This document shows positions 4,238 to 58,573 of a stretch of 62,895 bases of DNA, piece after piece. The position numbers and the translations under genes are program-made. Position 1 is the stretch's first letter. Every line of letters begins with the position of its first letter. Source of the DNA: Bacteroides sp. (GTDB lineage Bacteria; Bacteroidota; Bacteroidia; Bacteroidales; Bacteroidaceae); contig SUXY01000008.1 in assembly GCA_015060705.1 (NCBI GenBank), positions 1 to 62,895 on the forward strand. Direction: 5' to 3'. The notes under the pieces are model-generated. The model made no database searches, was not told the origin of the DNA, and worked only from the letters and a program-made list of their open reading frames with translations.

Positions 4238-6985
4238 ATGTCTACAATTGAAGAATTGGTTCGAAAGCGTATCCTTATTTTGGATGGCGCTTTAGGAACC
4301 ATGATCCAAAAATATAATCTTACAGAACAGGAGTTCCGAGGTGAACGCTTTGTGGATCAGCCCGGACAGATGAAAGGTAACAATGACTTGCTGTGTCTAA
4401 CTGCTCCCCAAGTTATTCAGGATATTCATCGGAAATACTTGGAAGCGGGAGCCGATATCATTGAAACCAATACCTTCAATGCACAACGTGTTTCAATGGC
4501 CGATTATCATGTGGAGACCTATTGCCGTGAAATCAATTTGGCTGCTGCTAAGCTAGCCCGTGATTTGGCGGATGAATATACGCGGAAGAATCCTCAAAAG
4601 CCTCGTTTTGTTGCAGGTTCTGTCGGTCCTACCAACAAGACATGTTCCATGAGCCCGGATGTAAACAATCCGGCTTTCCGTGCCATTACTTACGATGAAA
4701 TGGTAGAAGCTTATCAGGAACAGATGGAAGCTTTGCTTGAAGGAGGCGTTGATGCTATTTTGATTGAAACAATCTTTGATTCACTCAATGCGAAGGCAGC
4801 TGTCTATGCAGCTATGGAAACCATGGAAAAGGTGGGTCGAACTGTTCCTTTGATGCTTTCTGTTACAGTTTCTGATACGGGGGGACGCACTTTGTCTGGT
4901 CAGACATTGGATGCGTTCTTGGCTTCTGTGCAGCATGCTCCGATTTTTTCCATTGGTTTGAATTGTTCGTTCGGTGCTAAACAACTGAAACCTTTCTTGA
5001 AGCAATTGGCAGCACGTGCTCCTTATTATATCAGTGCATATCCGAATGCCGGACTTCCAAACAGCATGGGTGAATATGATCAGACTCCGGAAGATATGGC
5101 TTCCGAAGTAGAGGAATACATCAAGGAAGGAATGGTCAACATTATAGGTGGTTGCTGTGGTACTACCGAAGCTTACATTGCCAAGTATGTTCCGTTGGTG
5201 GAAGGAGCCAAACCTCATGTTCCTAATCCGAAGCTTGAAACTTTCTGCTTGTCGGGATTGGAATTACTGGAACAATCTCCTGAAGTAAAATTCATTAATG
5301 TGGGTGAACGATGCAATGTGGCTGGTTCGCGCAAGTTCCTTCGTTTGATCAATGAAAAGAATTACGAAGAAGCGTTGGGTATTGCCCGTAAGCAGGTGGA
5401 AGACGGAGCGTTGGTAATCGATGTAAATATGGATGACGGCTTGTTGGATGCAAAAGAGGAGATGAAAACTTTCCTAAATCTCATCATGTCTGAACCGGAG
5501 ATTGCTCGTGTACCTATTATGATTGATTCTTCCAAATGGGAAGTGATTGAGGCAGGTTTGAAGTGTTTGCAAGGAAAATCAATCGTTAATTCCATTTCGT
5601 TGAAGGAAGGTGAGGAGAAGTTCGTGGAAAGAGCCCGACTTATTAAGAAGTTGGGAGCGGCTACCGTTGTTATGGCATTTGACGAAAAGGGGCAAGCGGA
5701 TACGTTCGAACGTAAGATAGATGTATGCGGACGTGCTTATCGTATTTTGACCGAGCAAGTGGGCTTTAATCCGAATGATATCATTTTCGACCCGAATGTA
5801 CTTTCGGTGGCTACGGGTATGGAAGAGCATAACAATTATGCGGTTGATTTCATCCGTGCAACGGGGTGGATTAAGCAGAATTTGCCGGGTGCACATGTGA
5901 GTGGTGGAGTAAGTAATTTGTCTTTCTCATTCAGGGGGAATAACTATATCCGTGAGGCTATGCATGCCGTATTCTTGTATCATGCTATCCAACAGGGTAT
6001 GGATATGGCGATTCTGAATCCGGCTACTTCCGTTTTGTATAGTGATATTCCTGCTGATGTATTGGAACGTATTGAAGATGTGGTGTTGAATCGTCGTTCC
6101 GATGCGGCAGAACGATTGATTGAAACGGCTAATGCTTTGAAGGAAGCTTCTTCGTCTACAGTTTCCAATCAGGCGATAGTTCAACAAGTTTGGCGTGAAG
6201 CATCGATAGAAGAACGTTTGCAATATGCTTTGGTCAAGGGACAAGCTGAATATTTGGAAACCGATATCCAAGAAGCACTCACGAAATATTCAAGAGCGGT
6301 AGATATTATCGAAGGTCCTTTGATGGAGGGTATGAATAAAGTCGGTGAACTGTTTGGTGCAGGAAAGATGTTCCTTCCACAAGTGGTGAAGACTGCTCGA
6401 ACGATGAAAAAGGCGGTGGCTATTCTTCAACCGGCCATTGAAGCCGGAAAGGAAAAAGGTGCCAAGACCGCAGGTAAGGTATTGCTTGCTACTGTCAAGG
6501 GTGATGTGCATGATATTGGTAAGAATATCGTTTCGGTAGTAATGGCATGTAATAACTATGAAATCATAGACCTTGGAGTAATGGTTCCAGCCGAAACAAT
6601 CGTTCAGAAAGCCATAGAAGAAAAGGTGGACATTGTTGGGCTGAGCGGTTTGATTACCCCGTCATTGGAAGAAATGGTTCATGTTGCTAGTGAAATGCAA
6701 CGTGCCGGACTTCAGATTCCTATCATGGTAGGTGGGGCAACTACTTCAGCTTTGCATACGGCATTGAAGATTGCACCGGTGTATTCTGGTCCGGTCGTTC
6801 ATCTGAAAGATGCATCACAGAATGTGCTGGTTGCTGCTAAATTGTTGAATTTGGAACAAAGAACCGAATATGTTCAGTCGTTGAATGAAGAACGGGAACG
6901 GTTGATATTAAAGAATAATGAAAAACAAGTGAAACTGGTGTCTTTGGAGGAAGCTCAAAAGAATAAGTTAAAGTTGTTTGATTAA
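4238..6985 (+). CDS. metH: cobalamin-dependent methionine synthase lacking the reactivation domain
   Basis: MetH transfers a methyl group from methyltetrahydrofolate to homocysteine through methylcobalamin, forming methionine. The 915 residues contain the homocysteine domain (about 1-325, zinc-ligand cysteines in GLNCSFG and IGGCCGT), the pterin domain (about 345-610, starting FINVGERCN), the helical cap (about 650-740), and the B12 domain with the cobalt-ligand motif DVHDIG near residue 755. E. coli MetH has about 1,227 residues. Here the protein stops in the linker after the B12 domain, so the S-adenosylmethionine reactivation domain is missing. No remnant follows the stop, so this looks like normal architecture rather than a frameshift. 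A separate activation protein may act in trans. It follows smpB by 39 bases. Confidence 0.95.
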   Translation: MSTIEELVRKRILILDGALGTMIQKYNLTEQEFRGERFVDQPGQMKGNNDLLCLTAPQVIQDIHRKYLEAGADIIETNTFNAQRVSMADYHVETYCREINLAAAKLARDLADEYTRKNPQKPRFVAGSVGPTNKTCSMSPDVNNPAFRAITYDEMVEAYQEQMEALLEGGVDAILIETIFDSLNAKAAVYAAMETMEKVGRTVPLMLSVTVSDTGGRTLSGQTLDAFLASVQHAPIFSIGLNCSFGAKQLKPFLKQLAARAPYYISAYPNAGLPNSMGEYDQTPEDMASEVEEYIKEGMVNIIGGCCGTTEAYIAKYVPLVEGAKPHVPNPKLETFCLSGLELLEQSPEVKFINVGERCNVAGSRKFLRLINEKNYEEALGIARKQVEDGALVIDVNMDDGLLDAKEEMKTFLNLIMSEPEIARVPIMIDSSKWEVIEAGLKCLQGKSIVNSISLKEGEEKFVERARLIKKLGAATVVMAFDEKGQADTFERKIDVCGRAYRILTEQVGFNPNDIIFDPNVLSVATGMEEHNNYAVDFIRATGWIKQNLPGAHVSGGVSNLSFSFRGNNYIREAMHAVFLYHAIQQGMDMAILNPATSVLYSDIPADVLERIEDVVLNRRSDAAERLIETANALKEASSSTVSNQAIVQQVWREASIEERLQYALVKGQAEYLETDIQEALTKYSRAVDIIEGPLMEGMNKVGELFGAGKMFLPQVVKTARTMKKAVAILQPAIEAGKEKGAKTAGKVLLATVKGDVHDIGKNIVSVVMACNNYEIIDLGVMVPAETIVQKAIEEKVDIVGLSGLITPSLEEMVHVASEMQRAGLQIPIMVGGATTSALHTALKIAPVYSGPVVHLKDASQNVLVAAKLLNLEQRTEYVQSLNEERERLILKNNEKQVKLVSLEEAQKNKLKLFD

Positions 6986-48108: not shown

Positions 48109-48336
48109 ATGAACATAGCTGTTTTACTTTCAGGAGGAGTCGATAGTTCGGTTGCTGTGCATTTGCTTAATGAACAGGGCTATCGTCCGTCCTTGTTTTA
48201 TATTCGGATAAGCAGTGACGGAACTTGGCATGTTGAGGCTGATACTCCCATTCAAGGCATAGCTCCCGGTCAATTCGGTGCAATATACGATAGGGAACAT
48301 CGTTTGTGTTTGGGAAGTGGGGAGATTAGGTGTTGA
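48109..48336 (+). pseudogene. mnmA: mnmA remnant with the middle deleted
   Basis: The 75-residue frame joins two distant parts of the tRNA 2-thiouridylase MnmA. Residues 1-34 are its N-terminus with the PP-loop [15 protein letters not shown] and LFYIRI. Residues 35-75 match its C-terminal barrel, [16 protein letters not shown], then LCLGSGEI. MnmA usually has about 350-380 residues, so roughly 280 are missing in frame, including the catalytic cysteines. It starts 10 bases after pyrG. A functional mnmA should be elsewhere. Confidence 0.8.
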
Positions 48337-48431
48337 TAAACCTATATTTTTGTCAAAGTATAATGATATAAGGATACAGGTATTTGTCATCTTTGTTCCA
48401 TATTTTTTGGATTATATTTGAATTTTTGACG

Positions 48432-48439
48432 TATCTTTG
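48432..48439 (+). promoter_or_regulatory. -7 promoter box of the Crp-like gene
   Basis: TATCTTTG, 34 bases before the regulator start. Confidence 0.55.
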
Positions 48440-48473
48440 CCCAAAAGAAAACATATAAAACACGTATAAATCT

Positions 48474-49064
48474 ATGAGTCGTCAATTTGAAATAGCTAAA
48501 CAGATTATTGAGGAGACTTGTCCTCATCGAAAGTTGAAATTAGAAAGCATACGTTTGTTTGCCAGTGTCATTCAATGTAAAAAATACCACAAAGGGGATA
48601 TTGTTTTGGACGAAGGTAAAGTGTGCAACCACTTGTTATATATTGAAAAGGGATTGCTAAGGCAGTACTATGTCAAACATGGGAAAGATATGACGGAGCA
48701 TCTTTCATGCGAGGGAAGTGGTGTTGTATGGTGTATTGAAAGTTATTTTCGTCGGACACCAACACATTTGTTGATGGAAGCCTTGGAACCGAGCATTGTA
48801 TGGGAAATTCCACGTGACATCATGGAAGAAATGTCGGATACGAATTGTGATATGTCCTATTTGTATCGACGTTTTTTTGAGGACTCTTTGATACTTTCAC
48901 AGGTGAAAGCAGATATGCTTCGTTTTGAATCGGCAAAGGACAGATACTCAAGACTGATACAACTTTTCCCGGAAATCGTAAAAAGAGCACCTCTTACATA
49001 TATTGCTTCTTATCTTCAGATGTCTTTGGAAACATTGAGTCGTGTCCGCTCTTCCATGATATAA
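48474..49064 (+). CDS. Crp/Fnr-family regulator
   Basis: This 196-residue protein has an N-terminal cyclic-nucleotide-binding fold (about 25-115, KGDIVLDEGKVCNHLLYIEKGLLR) and a C-terminal helix-turn-helix (about 165-190, TYIASYLQMSLETLSRVR). It lacks the RxS phosphate-binding cassette expected of cAMP sensors, so its ligand is unclear. Many Bacteroidetes proteins of this form are of unknown target. It is followed by a terminator. Confidence 0.85.
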   Translation: MSRQFEIAKQIIEETCPHRKLKLESIRLFASVIQCKKYHKGDIVLDEGKVCNHLLYIEKGLLRQYYVKHGKDMTEHLSCEGSGVVWCIESYFRRTPTHLLMEALEPSIVWEIPRDIMEEMSDTNCDMSYLYRRFFEDSLILSQVKADMLRFESAKDRYSRLIQLFPEIVKRAPLTYIASYLQMSLETLSRVRSSMI

Positions 49065-49068
49065 AATG

Positions 49069-49098
49069 ACGAGGAGGGTATATTCATACTCTCCTCGT
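49069..49098 (+). terminator. rho-independent terminator of the Crp-like gene
   Basis: A 13-bp stem with one wobble pair surrounds a 4-base loop and starts four bases after the stop. The following T-run is short. Confidence 0.7.
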
Positions 49099-49169
49099 TT
49101 CATAAAACAGAGTTAACTAAAAATGTCCTTCTTTAAATGGACTTAAAGTGTTTATGTGATTCTTTGTCT

Positions 49170-49571
49170 TTAGTATTTTATAATTTTATTCTGTGCTAAA
49201 AAATCAGAAGTACTTTTTATATAAGGGTTTAAACCTTTGTTACGTAATTGGCTGTTTAATATGCGTAAATACTTTTTATATTGGTCTTGACTTAATGTAC
49301 TTCTCATCAGTTTCAAATTGCCATATACAGCTTCATTCAAATATTTGATTTGTCGTTTCCCCATCGAGTACTTGGCACTTTTCATCTTGTCGGAAAAGAA
49401 ATCAATGGCATCGGATACATGTTCGTATTGAATGGAATTCAAGTCTAAATATCGAGCCAAATCAGAAAGATGCATTTCCATATTCCAATCAGTGATTTCT
49501 AACTTTTCCTGTGAAAAACATACGGTCGACAAACATAAAACCGTAATAACGGATAAAAATAGTCTTTTCAT
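49170..49571 (-). CDS. small secreted protein of unknown function
   Basis: This 133-residue protein has a signal peptide (about 1-20, ending VCFSQ). The mature part is mostly helical and charged. No family was recognised. A 40-codon ORF lies just upstream on the same strand, and their promoter box is at 49837-49844. Neighbouring genes give no clue. Confidence 0.65.
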   Translation of the reverse strand: MKRLFLSVITVLCLSTVCFSQEKLEITDWNMEMHLSDLARYLDLNSIQYEHVSDAIDFFSDKMKSAKYSMGKRQIKYLNEAVYGNLKLMRSTLSQDQYKKYLRILNSQLRNKGLNPYIKSTSDFLAQNKIIKY

Positions 49572-49602
49572 AATCTATCAATGTTAATGTTGTTTCTTTT
49601 GT

Positions 49603-49725
49603 TTAATGCATGATGGGATTCATTCCGGTTGGACACCAAAAGTTTATTTTTCTGTAATTTTTAGTATTTACGTCCACGGAATGGTCTGCAAATACAGACT
49701 TGATAAAATCTACAATCTTTTTCAT
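49603..49725 (-). CDS. possible 40-residue peptide
   Basis: A short ORF (MKKIVDFIKSVFADHS...) precedes the secreted protein by 31 bases, with GAAGG just before the ATG and a -7 box about 110 bases upstream. It could be a genuine small gene or part of an untranslated leader. No similarity recognised. Confidence 0.3.
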   Translation of the reverse strand: MKKIVDFIKSVFADHSVDVNTKNYRKINFWCPTGMNPIMH

Positions 49726-49836
49726 CCTTCAAATTTTTAAATCCTTTCTGTTGGAAGGTTGGGTTAATAACTTCTACCTATTGAAAATGTTGTTTCATCG
49801 TTCTTGCTTACTTTTAGTTTCTCTAGTTTTACGCAG

Positions 49837-49844
49837 CAAATATA
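49837..49844 (-). promoter_or_regulatory. -7 promoter box for the small peptide and secreted protein
   Basis: TATATTTG on the minus strand. Confidence 0.45.
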
Positions 49845-50038
49845 TGGCAAAACGAAATTGATTGGAGTAAAATAATGGCAAAAAATGAAAAATAAGCCCA
49901 TTTATTTGATAAATGTCAAATATTTCTTGTGGGGAAGCTGCTAAATGTTAAACCGTATGCCCGATTGGAGAACGGTATATTCTTAATAATGGGGCGTATC
50001 AGAAGGATATTTAAATGTATTACAACTTATACTAGAAG

Positions 50039-50139
50039 AATCCGAACCATGCTGCCACCTGTGCAACAAACATTCAACTCACTATCATTCAAGAAGAAGC
50101 TGTTGCACCGATGGTGCAACAGCCTTGATTTCGTGCAAC
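50039..50139. repeat. left 101-bp inverted repeat flanking virE
   Basis: This arm matches the reverse complement of 51753-51853 at 93 of 101 positions with no gaps. It ends one base from the virE stop. Each arm contains GTGCAAC or its complement four times, two of them forming a hairpin (10-bp stem, 3-base loop here). Confidence 0.93.
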
Positions 50140-50140
50140 G

Positions 50141-51388
50141 TTATAAAGGTACTACCCTGTAATAACTTCCGGTTCGTGTTCGTACACGTTCTATTCCCAT
50201 GGCCAACAACATTCGCCCCATGTTACTGATACTTCTTCCACGGAAAGCACTCGGAAAACGTTTCTGTAGTTTGCAGAATATTTCGGTAGAAGATATTTGG
50301 ATTCCTTCTTCTCCCTCCATGGGTAAGCGGAAACAACGGAAGAAGACATCCTGCTCCGGTGAAAACTTATAGAACATACGGTTATGCTCCTGAATTTTCC
50401 TTTCCTCTTCCGATGTGAACCAATAACGCTCGCCATTCAGCAACTCTGTTTTCAGTTGGGCATACAATTGGGCATAATCCGGCAAGGTACAATCGATTTT
50501 CCCTTTCACTTCCACACAGAGAAAACGACGGCTTCCGGTGGTGTCAGTCAGTAATTCCTTCTGATTGCTGGTGCCAATGAAGGACGCAATTCGGGGTAAT
50601 TGACTATAATACGCTCGATGCGATTTGCGGAAAGTGAGCTTCTTCAATTGCATCAGATTCTTCAAGGTAGCCATCGTTCGGATGCCATAACGGTCGAACT
50701 CATCCATATTAATCAAGCCGAAGAGTGAAAGTTTCTGTTCGCATCCGCTTACACTGGTGATGTCAAACTTGTCGATATAGAAGCGTTGCAATTCAGTCGG
50801 CAATAAGATTGAGCAAAACGTAGATTTACAACGCCCTTGCTCGGTACTGACGAGTAGAGGAGCTACAGCATTCGCACACTGGACATCCATCGCCATCCAT
50901 TGGGCAGTCATCCCAAGCATCCATCGATGAAAACCCTCTATCCACAAGGGAGCGTCCGATACACGGGAGGCCAATTCCGATACGCGGTCGATACCATCCC
51001 AATCCGGGAGGTTATCCATATAATCAAGGAACGGATGATAATCGGCAATCTCTTGGGAGAGAAGCAGTCGACTTACATCCTTGTCCCAACAATTGATGCC
51101 ATTTTTTCGTGCCACCAGACAAAGCGTGTTCAGTACACGTTGGTCCACCAACTCATAGATAGAAGTTCCTTTCGGTGCATATTCCGTCTGTTCCGTCAGC
51201 ACATTGAACCGGAAATCGAAACGGTCAAACAGACATGCTTCCAGATTGTCCAACAAAGACGAATTCTTGAACGTCGTTTCGGTCTTTTCCTTTGTTTTCG
51301 CCGATACATCCATCGTCTCATTCAAAGAGGTTTCTACACCCTTCTTTCCGAACCATTTCTTCCAGATTTCTTTCATTTTTTCGAACAT
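50141..51388 (-). CDS. VirE-family (DUF3874) helicase/primase-like protein
   Basis: This 415-residue protein belongs to the virulence-associated E group, P-loop ATPases akin to phage and satellite helicases. The nucleotide site is unusual: VSTEQGRCKST (about 180-190) has Cys where a second glycine is expected, while the Walker B-like LINMDEFDR is clear (about 225-233). A C-terminal DUF3874-type region follows. No primase domain is present, so it may be an N-terminally short form. It lies between 101-bp inverted repeats with iteron-like repeats upstream, which suggests a replication-linked mobile cassette. Biochemical role unknown. Confidence 0.85.
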   Translation of the reverse strand: MFEKMKEIWKKWFGKKGVETSLNETMDVSAKTKEKTETTFKNSSLLDNLEACLFDRFDFRFNVLTEQTEYAPKGTSIYELVDQRVLNTLCLVARKNGINCWDKDVSRLLLSQEIADYHPFLDYMDNLPDWDGIDRVSELASRVSDAPLWIEGFHRWMLGMTAQWMAMDVQCANAVAPLLVSTEQGRCKSTFCSILLPTELQRFYIDKFDITSVSGCEQKLSLFGLINMDEFDRYGIRTMATLKNLMQLKKLTFRKSHRAYYSQLPRIASFIGTSNQKELLTDTTGSRRFLCVEVKGKIDCTLPDYAQLYAQLKTELLNGERYWFTSEEERKIQEHNRMFYKFSPEQDVFFRCFRLPMEGEEGIQISSTEIFCKLQKRFPSAFRGRSISNMGRMLLAMGIERVRTRTGSYYRVVPL

Positions 51389-51419
51389 ATATTATTTGTT
51401 TTTTAGGTTTCTGATAGTG

Positions 51420-51427
51420 CAAATATA
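51420..51427 (-). promoter_or_regulatory. -7 promoter box of virE
   Basis: TATATTTG on the minus strand, 32 bases before virE, with a TTG about 20 bases further upstream as a possible -33 element. Confidence 0.5.
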
Positions 51428-51554
51428 ATACCTCAAAATCCTGATGTCAAGTGTTTTATGCAGAAAAATGAACTAATGAAAAAGACCCCATTTTTGGGTG
51501 CATGCTCCTATATACATTCCATTTCAGATAAGCATCTGTAGACCATCTCACTCC

Positions 51555-51642
51555 AATGATAAACATGTATAACTCTAGTGAGACGGTCGTATAATTTCAG
51601 TGATACAATCGTATTAATAGAGTGATACAATATATATACTTA
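51555..51642. repeat. four 22-bp iteron-like direct repeats
   Basis: Units begin at 51555, 51577, 51599 and 51621, exactly 22 bases apart. The core AGTGATACAATCGTATTAAT is shared, best between units 2, 3 and 4; unit 1 is weaker (about 13 of 22). A two-turn period upstream of a helicase gene resembles plasmid-origin iterons or multiple repressor sites. Confidence 0.75.
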
Positions 51643-51752
51643 ATATCTTTAGGTGATGATGACTGTATTTGTGAGGGAAGAAGATAGTAAACGAAGAATA
51701 GTTTTACGAAACGGTGTTTCGCTTAGGTATCAGAAAATGGGAAAGACACACG

Positions 51753-51853
51753 GTTGCACGAAATCAAAGCTGTTGCACCATCGGTGCAACGGTTTCTTTC
51801 TGAATGATAGTGAGTTGAGTGTTTGTTGCACGGGTGGCAGCATGGTTCAGATT
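51753..51853. repeat. right 101-bp inverted repeat flanking virE
   Basis: Reverse-complement partner of 50039-50139 (93/101). It lies 364 bases beyond the virE start and outside the 22-bp repeats, so the repeats and gene are both enclosed. Confidence 0.93.
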
Positions 51854-51892
51854 AATAGTGTTGTTGAAATATGGAGTCACTTTCGGCGTGGT

Positions 51893-51938
51893 ATAGTTTA
51901 CCAAATCATGTATTTTATTGGTACATTTGGTAAACTAT
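51893..51938. repeat. perfect 14-bp inverted repeat
   Basis: Arms 51893-51906 and 51925-51938 (ATAGTTTACCAAAT and its complement) surround 18 bases. No T-run follows on either strand, so it is not a usual terminator. Confidence 0.85.
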
Positions 51939-51964
51939 CGACATGTTTGTGAAATAAAGTACAG

Positions 51965-52003
51965 TCAAGGTGAATGCGAAATCATAGAAGTCTAGCACCT
52001 TGA
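51965..52003. repeat. 8-bp inverted repeat
   Basis: TCAAGGTG at 51965-51972 and its complement at 51996-52003 form the second of three stem-loops between the virE cassette and trpB. Confidence 0.6.
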
Positions 52004-58479: not shown

Positions 58480-58495
58480 CACCAATTGTCATTCA

Positions 58496-58573
58496 GAGCG
58501 AAGCGAAGAATCTCGATGACATATACGTGGATGTTATCGAGATTCTTCCTCCCTTCGGTCGTCTGAATGACAA
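58496..58573. repeat. REP-like inverted repeat
   Basis: Arms starting TTGTCATTCAGA and sharing GAAGAATCTCGAT face each other over 78 bases. The form TGTCATTC-x-GAGCGAAGCGAAGAATCT is a repeat I recall from many Bacteroidetes genomes. It fills most of the 358-base gap before the DUF308 gene. Confidence 0.75.

Follow-up and report, generated by a model that had tools for sequence, protein, structure and literature searches.

An intact vapE gene between iteron-bearing inverted arms: a probable HU-less member of a Bacteroidaceae family of transposon-like elements

The virE/vapE-type gene of the Bacteroides contig analyzed here (the window, a stretch of 62,895 nucleotides) is enclosed by long inverted repeats, and on balance the locus is probably an HU-less copy of a transposon-like Bacteroidaceae element family whose mobility would be driven by VapE and HU without a transposase. 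Genomes of the Bacteroides group are rich in VirE/VapE genes, for which annotation commonly offers the label virulence-associated protein E or DUF3874 protein and no role. If some of them are the coding half of a mobile family with miniature progeny, this annotation puzzle turns testable, and the question becomes one of a helicase and an HU protein spreading DNA without a transposase. Such a family would also account for one type of repeat found between the genes of this clade.

The two 101-bp arms lie at 50039-50139 (plus strand, read from outside to inside) and 51753-51853 (minus strand) and are identical at 93 of 101 positions without gaps, as described in the initial annotation of the locus. 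Each arm carries four copies of the heptamer GTGCAAC/GTTGCAC (at 50061, 50102, 50114 and 50133 on the left and at 51753, 51772, 51784 and 51825 on the right), again as annotated, and the arms hold 8 of the 19 copies present in the whole window. The heptamers at 50102 and 50114 form the dyad of a predicted hairpin, and the left arm does end one base from the stop codon of the vapE reading frame. In a scan of one geometry at 238 positions in 250-base steps, the inverted-repeat score reached 86 and 85 at the arms, the next best value being 19. A profile (R1) built from 38 arms matches at 50044-50142 and 51750-51848; the window arms belonged to this training set, whose members match by construction. 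An array of imperfect palindromes with no strand assignment occupies 51541-51629 (self-complementary matches at positions 153-241 of the stretch 51389-51752), which corresponds to the zone between the divergent HU and virE genes of full relatives. The window copy comprises both arms, the central palindromes and an intact vapE, and no HU gene was found beside its right arm. The ORFs of the cassette include no transposase or integrase, in agreement with the annotation, and an Rfam scan of 49900-52000 at E ≤ 0.1 returned no family.

The vapE gene (50141-51388, minus strand) encodes 415 amino acids with a VapE-like ATPase domain (PF05272, E 6e-27) and a C-terminal DUF3874 domain (PF12990, E 1e-22). 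Walker A (QGRCKST) and Walker B (NMDEF) motifs are present, and an alignment of 14 sequences shows conservation of the Walker residues. The gene is under purifying selection, with pN of 0.13-0.19 versus pS of 0.72-0.81 against five relatives. A profile search of PDB sequences at E ≤ 1 gave a single match, 7pds (E 6e-12), described as 'Similar to D. nodosus vapE'. Of 301 Bacteroidaceae genomes sampled, 134 have a homologue at E ≤ 1e-20, frequently more than one; the source genome (G000) has further copies or pieces on contigs C70, C87, C88 and C100. The paralogue on C100 (L050, 5784-6809) is broken by an insertion of ~1 kb with a 303-aa ORF, which looks like an IS982-like transposase. In the complete genome G293, two virE copies are each split by ~11.5 kb (L296, C1:616142-628758; L297, 2962599-2975270), and the genome has shorter, incomplete copies at about 5008.5 kb and 238 kb. 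A known defence family for VapE was rejected, as PADLOC assigns it none; for HU it gives two weak partial ones (E 2e-4 and 1.5e-3).

Fourteen relatives were taken from genome contigs for comparison. In L006, L008, L010, L011 and L015, inverted arms of ~100 bp again enclose vapE, with one arm at the virE stop. L008, L010, L011 and L049, the last within the source genome itself, are units of ~2.3 kb with a divergent HU-HIG gene whose stop codon lies at the other arm, so that the full element of ~2.3 kb runs arm, HU-HIG, central palindromes, divergent vapE/DUF3874, arm. The HU gene belongs to HU-HIG (PF18291, E 8e-37 for L011) and has a weak wHTH match in its C-terminal part; by the Pfam description, HU-HIG is an HU domain fused to a wHTH, Ig or Gly-rich motif. 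The window copy, L006 and others have no HU. In the tree the HU-less rows are scattered, the window copy pairing with the HU-less L005 (84/90, unstarred), so HU loss appears recurrent. The HU alignment omits L007, which has one stop within its range. No integrase or recombinase was found among the ORFs of the 1.8-2.3 kb elements in the window, L006, L010 and L011, and the eight gene-bearing units examined, all drawn from vapE loci, contain vapE with or without HU and neither a transposase or recombinase nor a RAYT (tyrosine HUH) gene.

The initial annotation had taken the locus for a small cassette of mobile type whose long terminal repeats contain iterons, a reading borne out by the recurrence of the same plan in relatives; the several copies flanking VirE-like genes that it suggested looking for occur both in the source genome and in other genomes. 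Two of its points need correction. It had noted that HU, DUF4248 and amidase genes are missing; all are indeed absent at the window, but HU is part of the system, as several relatives carry HU-HIG between their arms, and the window copy is better described as an HU-less variant of the family. It had also held that arms unique to this locus would speak against mobility. By ordinary blastn the arms are unique, with two matches in their own genome (an 88% complete draft) and a weak 31-base match (E 2e-4) in one other genome among 301 of Bacteroidaceae. By profile they are dispersed, because the arm sequence varies between elements on a common plan.

A pairwise test measured how regularly such arms accompany virE. 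An inverted-repeat score of at least 22 was obtained around virE at 22 of 65 scored loci, versus 1 of 85 control ORFs of the same loci; at a cut of 28 the numbers were 15 and 1. Of 75 loci, 65 were scorable, with orthologous G249/G293 pairs kept in the count and two contigs counted twice (L013/L053 and L017/L103, all under the cut). The remaining 43 of the 65 loci, the HU-bearing L013 included, have no arms by this test. L007 likewise has none pairwise, yet profile R1 finds both of its arms (as L149, by its length the same contig).

Of 61 genomes of the genus searched at E ≤ 1e-4, 11 close ones account for 198 matches to profile R1 and the other 50 for 2; some of these 50 carry vapE copies with different arms. 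Within the source genome the count is 33 at this threshold and rises to 38 when the threshold is relaxed to E ≤ 0.01. Stray arm matches appeared when elements and flanks were searched in the 11 close genomes, and many of these are inverted pairs around a short gene-less spacer. Some arms are unpaired, several of them near contig ends; many of the compared genomes are draft MAGs. Among the 150 matches listed, neighboring arm pairs face inward in 33 of 33 cases within 600 bp (12 of which, by hand tally, included a training-set arm) and in 9 of 10 cases at 600-2600 bp. The nine longer inward pairs comprise seven vapE elements, a unit without any ORF above 100 aa (L230, G000:C30) and G317:C17:371-1273. 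The arms are conserved, paired, inward-facing termini.

Thirty-one arm-bounded units were examined, 23 of them lacking any ORF above 100 aa and the other 8 containing vapE, some with HU and some without. The gene-less units span 0.2-0.5 kb and occur in the same genomes as vapE elements. Four 450-bp units of G317 are 76-83% identical end to end, a fifth (L184) being alike in the arms only; five miniature units of the source genome are 64-80% identical along their length, three of G318 66-70% and three of G324 68-90%, the highest value being that of L194 and L247 (90%). For 16 units of these four genomes, whole-unit identity is 0.64-0.90 and flank scores range from 0.01 to 0.43, mostly ~0.1 with a few at 0.3-0.43. 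Because most of the units compared are alike over their full length and their flanks are mostly unrelated, they behave as miniature non-autonomous elements, and we read the pattern as whole units having probably spread. These gene-less units are the strongest sign of mobility. At 28 of the 31 units the 3' end of a gene, as mechanically called ORFs, faces the unit, often within a few bases. One orthologous site, with flanks 86-90% identical, holds the full element L149 in G316 and a 509-bp unit, L167, in G319. L167 retains both arms and central repeats and reads as a probable internally deleted copy of L149; G319 has ~4.65 kb of other DNA beside it. A blastn search of the source genome turned up no miniature unit with arms close to those of the window element. 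Central palindromic arrays are present in the window, L006, L008, L010, L011 and L049 and in the five miniature units examined for them (L179, L180, L184, L186 and L188), with differing motifs. An array of the GATACGTATC type in G317 (L246; contigs C1, C2, C6, C20, C40 and C42) lies beside arms too, not just between them.

The box sequence of the arms is element-specific on a common plan. The window uses GTGCAAC, L011 and L049 mostly CTGCCAC, L010, L152 and the G317 units nearly all T-type boxes (TTGCAAC/TTGCCAC), and L015 an altogether different word. In G317 the full element and the miniature units have the nearly pure T-type iteron in common; those of the source genome combine C- and G-type boxes, which leaves G317 as the only genome where full and miniature elements match cleanly in class. 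A per-element 6-mer test gave a strong result at the window element (2 of 500 shuffles) and a weak one for several others (L098, L106, L107 and L014), and element-specific iterons therefore rest on the close group. In the 38 arms, the first letter of box 1b covaries with the inverted box 2 (C-G 14, U-A 12, G-C 8, other 4). We read the covarying boxes as one putative protein-binding word held in register rather than as RNA pairing. An RNA-structure reading of the arms was rejected, since the RNAalifold consensus of the 38 arms has four pairs only, taken as the shared iteron letter.

No target duplication was found in 30 pairs, in which matched k-mers (k = 3-8) were not commoner than in mispaired flanks, the exact element tips being uncertain by some bases. 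A base-exact empty site was not found with whole-element queries in 11 genomes, with joined flanks, at the L244/L295 site pair or in a complete-genome pair; these searches returned near-empty, rearranged or interrupted sites. The best near-empty site, in the rpoC-DUF3467 interval (L152 versus L159), is flanked on one side by ~1.4 kb of additional DNA, and the L244 site in G322 holds ~400 bp of other sequence. Among the matches listed in the joined-flank search of 11 units, none ran across the junction. The case for mobility therefore rests on dispersal and not on insertion polymorphism, and this dispersal supports probable mobility of the arm-bounded units.

Phage records matching vapE number 214, all below 60% identity, and include Cellulophaga phages with annotated VirE. 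A phage origin of the element was rejected, as a pattern scan of viral contigs (22 stretches) confirmed no relative and three of the 214 records, unannotated virome scaffolds, have no arm pair around virE. Of 48 matching plasmid records, three were inspected and have neighbor genes that look chromosomal; arm pairs are present in two, L317 and L319, and none encloses the gene in L318. L317 (2536-6229, Bacteroides finegoldii) has an arm pair around a DUF4143 AAA ATPase gene, HU and VapE, the ATPase gene being possible cargo. The long-type VirE loci L319 (3540-6252), L102 and L106 have arm pairs of ~155-170 bp, L102 with a PF08800 N-domain, which suggests that the arm plan may extend past the HU type to long-type VirE.

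Several known systems resemble the family in part. REP/RAYT systems likewise combine palindromic units scattered between genes with one or a few coding copies; their RAYT protein is a tyrosine HUH nuclease, and the eight gene-bearing units here have no RAYT-type gene. Bacteroides VirE genes of the BT4734-like type occur in clusters with HU, DUF4248 and amidase genes, known to us as gene clusters and not as termini-bounded elements. They share the VapE and DUF3874 module, and some long-type VirE loci also have arms, whereas DUF4248 and amidase are absent from the window element. The SaPI and SCC modules offer a parallel in replication. According to PMC7581432, the C-terminal domain of SaPI Rep helicases recognizes iterons directly downstream of the helicase's own gene, and Cch2 of SCC likewise binds repeats downstream of its own gene. 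Common to these modules and the window element are a helicase of the self-loading type (here predicted) and iterons arrayed immediately behind the gene encoding it, and the PF05272 and 7pds profile matches point to a VapE/D5-type Rep helicase. Those islands carry an integrase or recombinase, and none was seen in the window family, which differs further in having two inverted iteron arrays as its ends, an HU-HIG partner and miniature units. Among bacterial IS MITEs, BrickBuilt of Porphyromonas gingivalis is similarly short, intergenic, gene-less, inverted-repeat-bounded and multicopy, but has short TIRs resembling ISPg1/ISPg9 (PMC4596501), in contrast to the ~100-bp iteron arms, missing target duplication and coding partner vapE/HU of the window family. 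The PINSR repeat of Prevotella was rejected as the identity of the arms because, according to PMC4755523, it has no terminal repeats. We file the family with mobile elements of the inverted-repeat/MITE kind, its coding content not being familiar from that kind. The literature covered, which took in few subscription journals and no bioRxiv preprints, yielded no account of VirE elements that have terminal repeats or MITEs.

The favored reading supposes that the arm-bounded units moved rather than arose otherwise. By analogy with SaPI and SCC, VapE would be a self-loading Rep helicase whose C-terminal DUF3874 reads its own iterons. Loading of VapE at its own arms is proposed from the repeat binding of SaPI Rep and SCC Cch2 together with the four-iteron arm one base behind the vapE stop, and the arms would then act as paired inverted origins. 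HU-HIG may bind the central palindromes or the arms, folding the DNA, and the two proteins together would melt and replicate the arm-bounded DNA. Host recombination or an unrecognised activity would insert the copy, mostly close to the 3' end of a gene, and no target duplication would result. Miniature units would ride in trans, and the window copy may borrow HU from a sister element, e.g. that on contig C70 of the source genome. The absence of target duplication disfavors standard DDE transposition. Counting against the scheme, we know of no strand-transfer chemistry in a helicase or an HU protein. Carried furthest, it describes a transposase-less transposable element in which a self-loading replicative helicase of the VapE family, together with HU-HIG, copies whatever DNA lies between two inverted iteron 'origins', the copies being seeded close to the 3' ends of genes with no duplication of the target; the replication origin itself would be the transposable unit and the miniature units its parasites, and recognition would co-diversify, each lineage copying mainly its own ends. 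This extended version is offered tentatively, as a possibility short of a probable one.

A rather doubtful, though serious, alternative is that an unlinked conventional transposase or recombinase moves the arms and miniature units, vapE/HU being cargo or a passenger that gained ends. We know of no transposase activity in the VapE and HU-HIG families, which counts in its favor, and another gene, that for the DUF4143 AAA ATPase of L317, can sit between arms. Typical MITEs moreover borrow the transposase of an IS, according to PMC4596501. Such a transposase fits poorly with the missing target duplication, with 100-bp four-iteron arms so different from short IS ends, and with arms that vary in sequence between elements while vapE stays adjacent; the eight gene-bearing units all carry vapE and none a transposase, although these were chosen from vapE loci.

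Explanations that do without movement of the elements are less probable still. It is improbable that vapE/HU serves the chromosome as a module of defence or replication interference against invaders, in which the arms would be its operators or decoy origins and the units scattered through the genome amplified binding sites. Element-specific iterons would suit an arms race, and Burroughs et al. reportedly made a prediction in 2017 tying expanded Bacteroidetes HU families to the recognition of mobile elements; units alike over their length in unrelated flanks are, however, the trace left by mobile DNA, one vapE paralogue is broken by an insertion, and PADLOC offers no VapE family and only the two weak partial HU ones. 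A role of the arms as bidirectional terminators of transcription, or as phase-variation repeats, with none in mobility would agree with the dyad in each arm and with the gene 3' ends facing most units, but termination needs neither four iterons nor inward pairing nor dispersed units alike over their full length, and with a four-pair consensus fold and no Rfam family we consider this very improbable.

The immediate neighborhood of the window element is rearranged in the compared relatives, where trpB has other neighbors, and no empty site is therefore readable for the window copy. In G318 the Crp/DUF segment is inverted beside pyrG (window 48405-49958 versus L139, G318:C5). The element thus appears to lie near a rearrangement breakpoint. 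At 48109-48336, behind pyrG, a short ORF joins the start and end of one gene, presumably of the mnmA type, as an internally deleted remnant. Further along the window, 58486-58572 is a copy of a different, abundant repeat of ~87 bp (4424-4510 of the query) that matches many contigs in these genomes.
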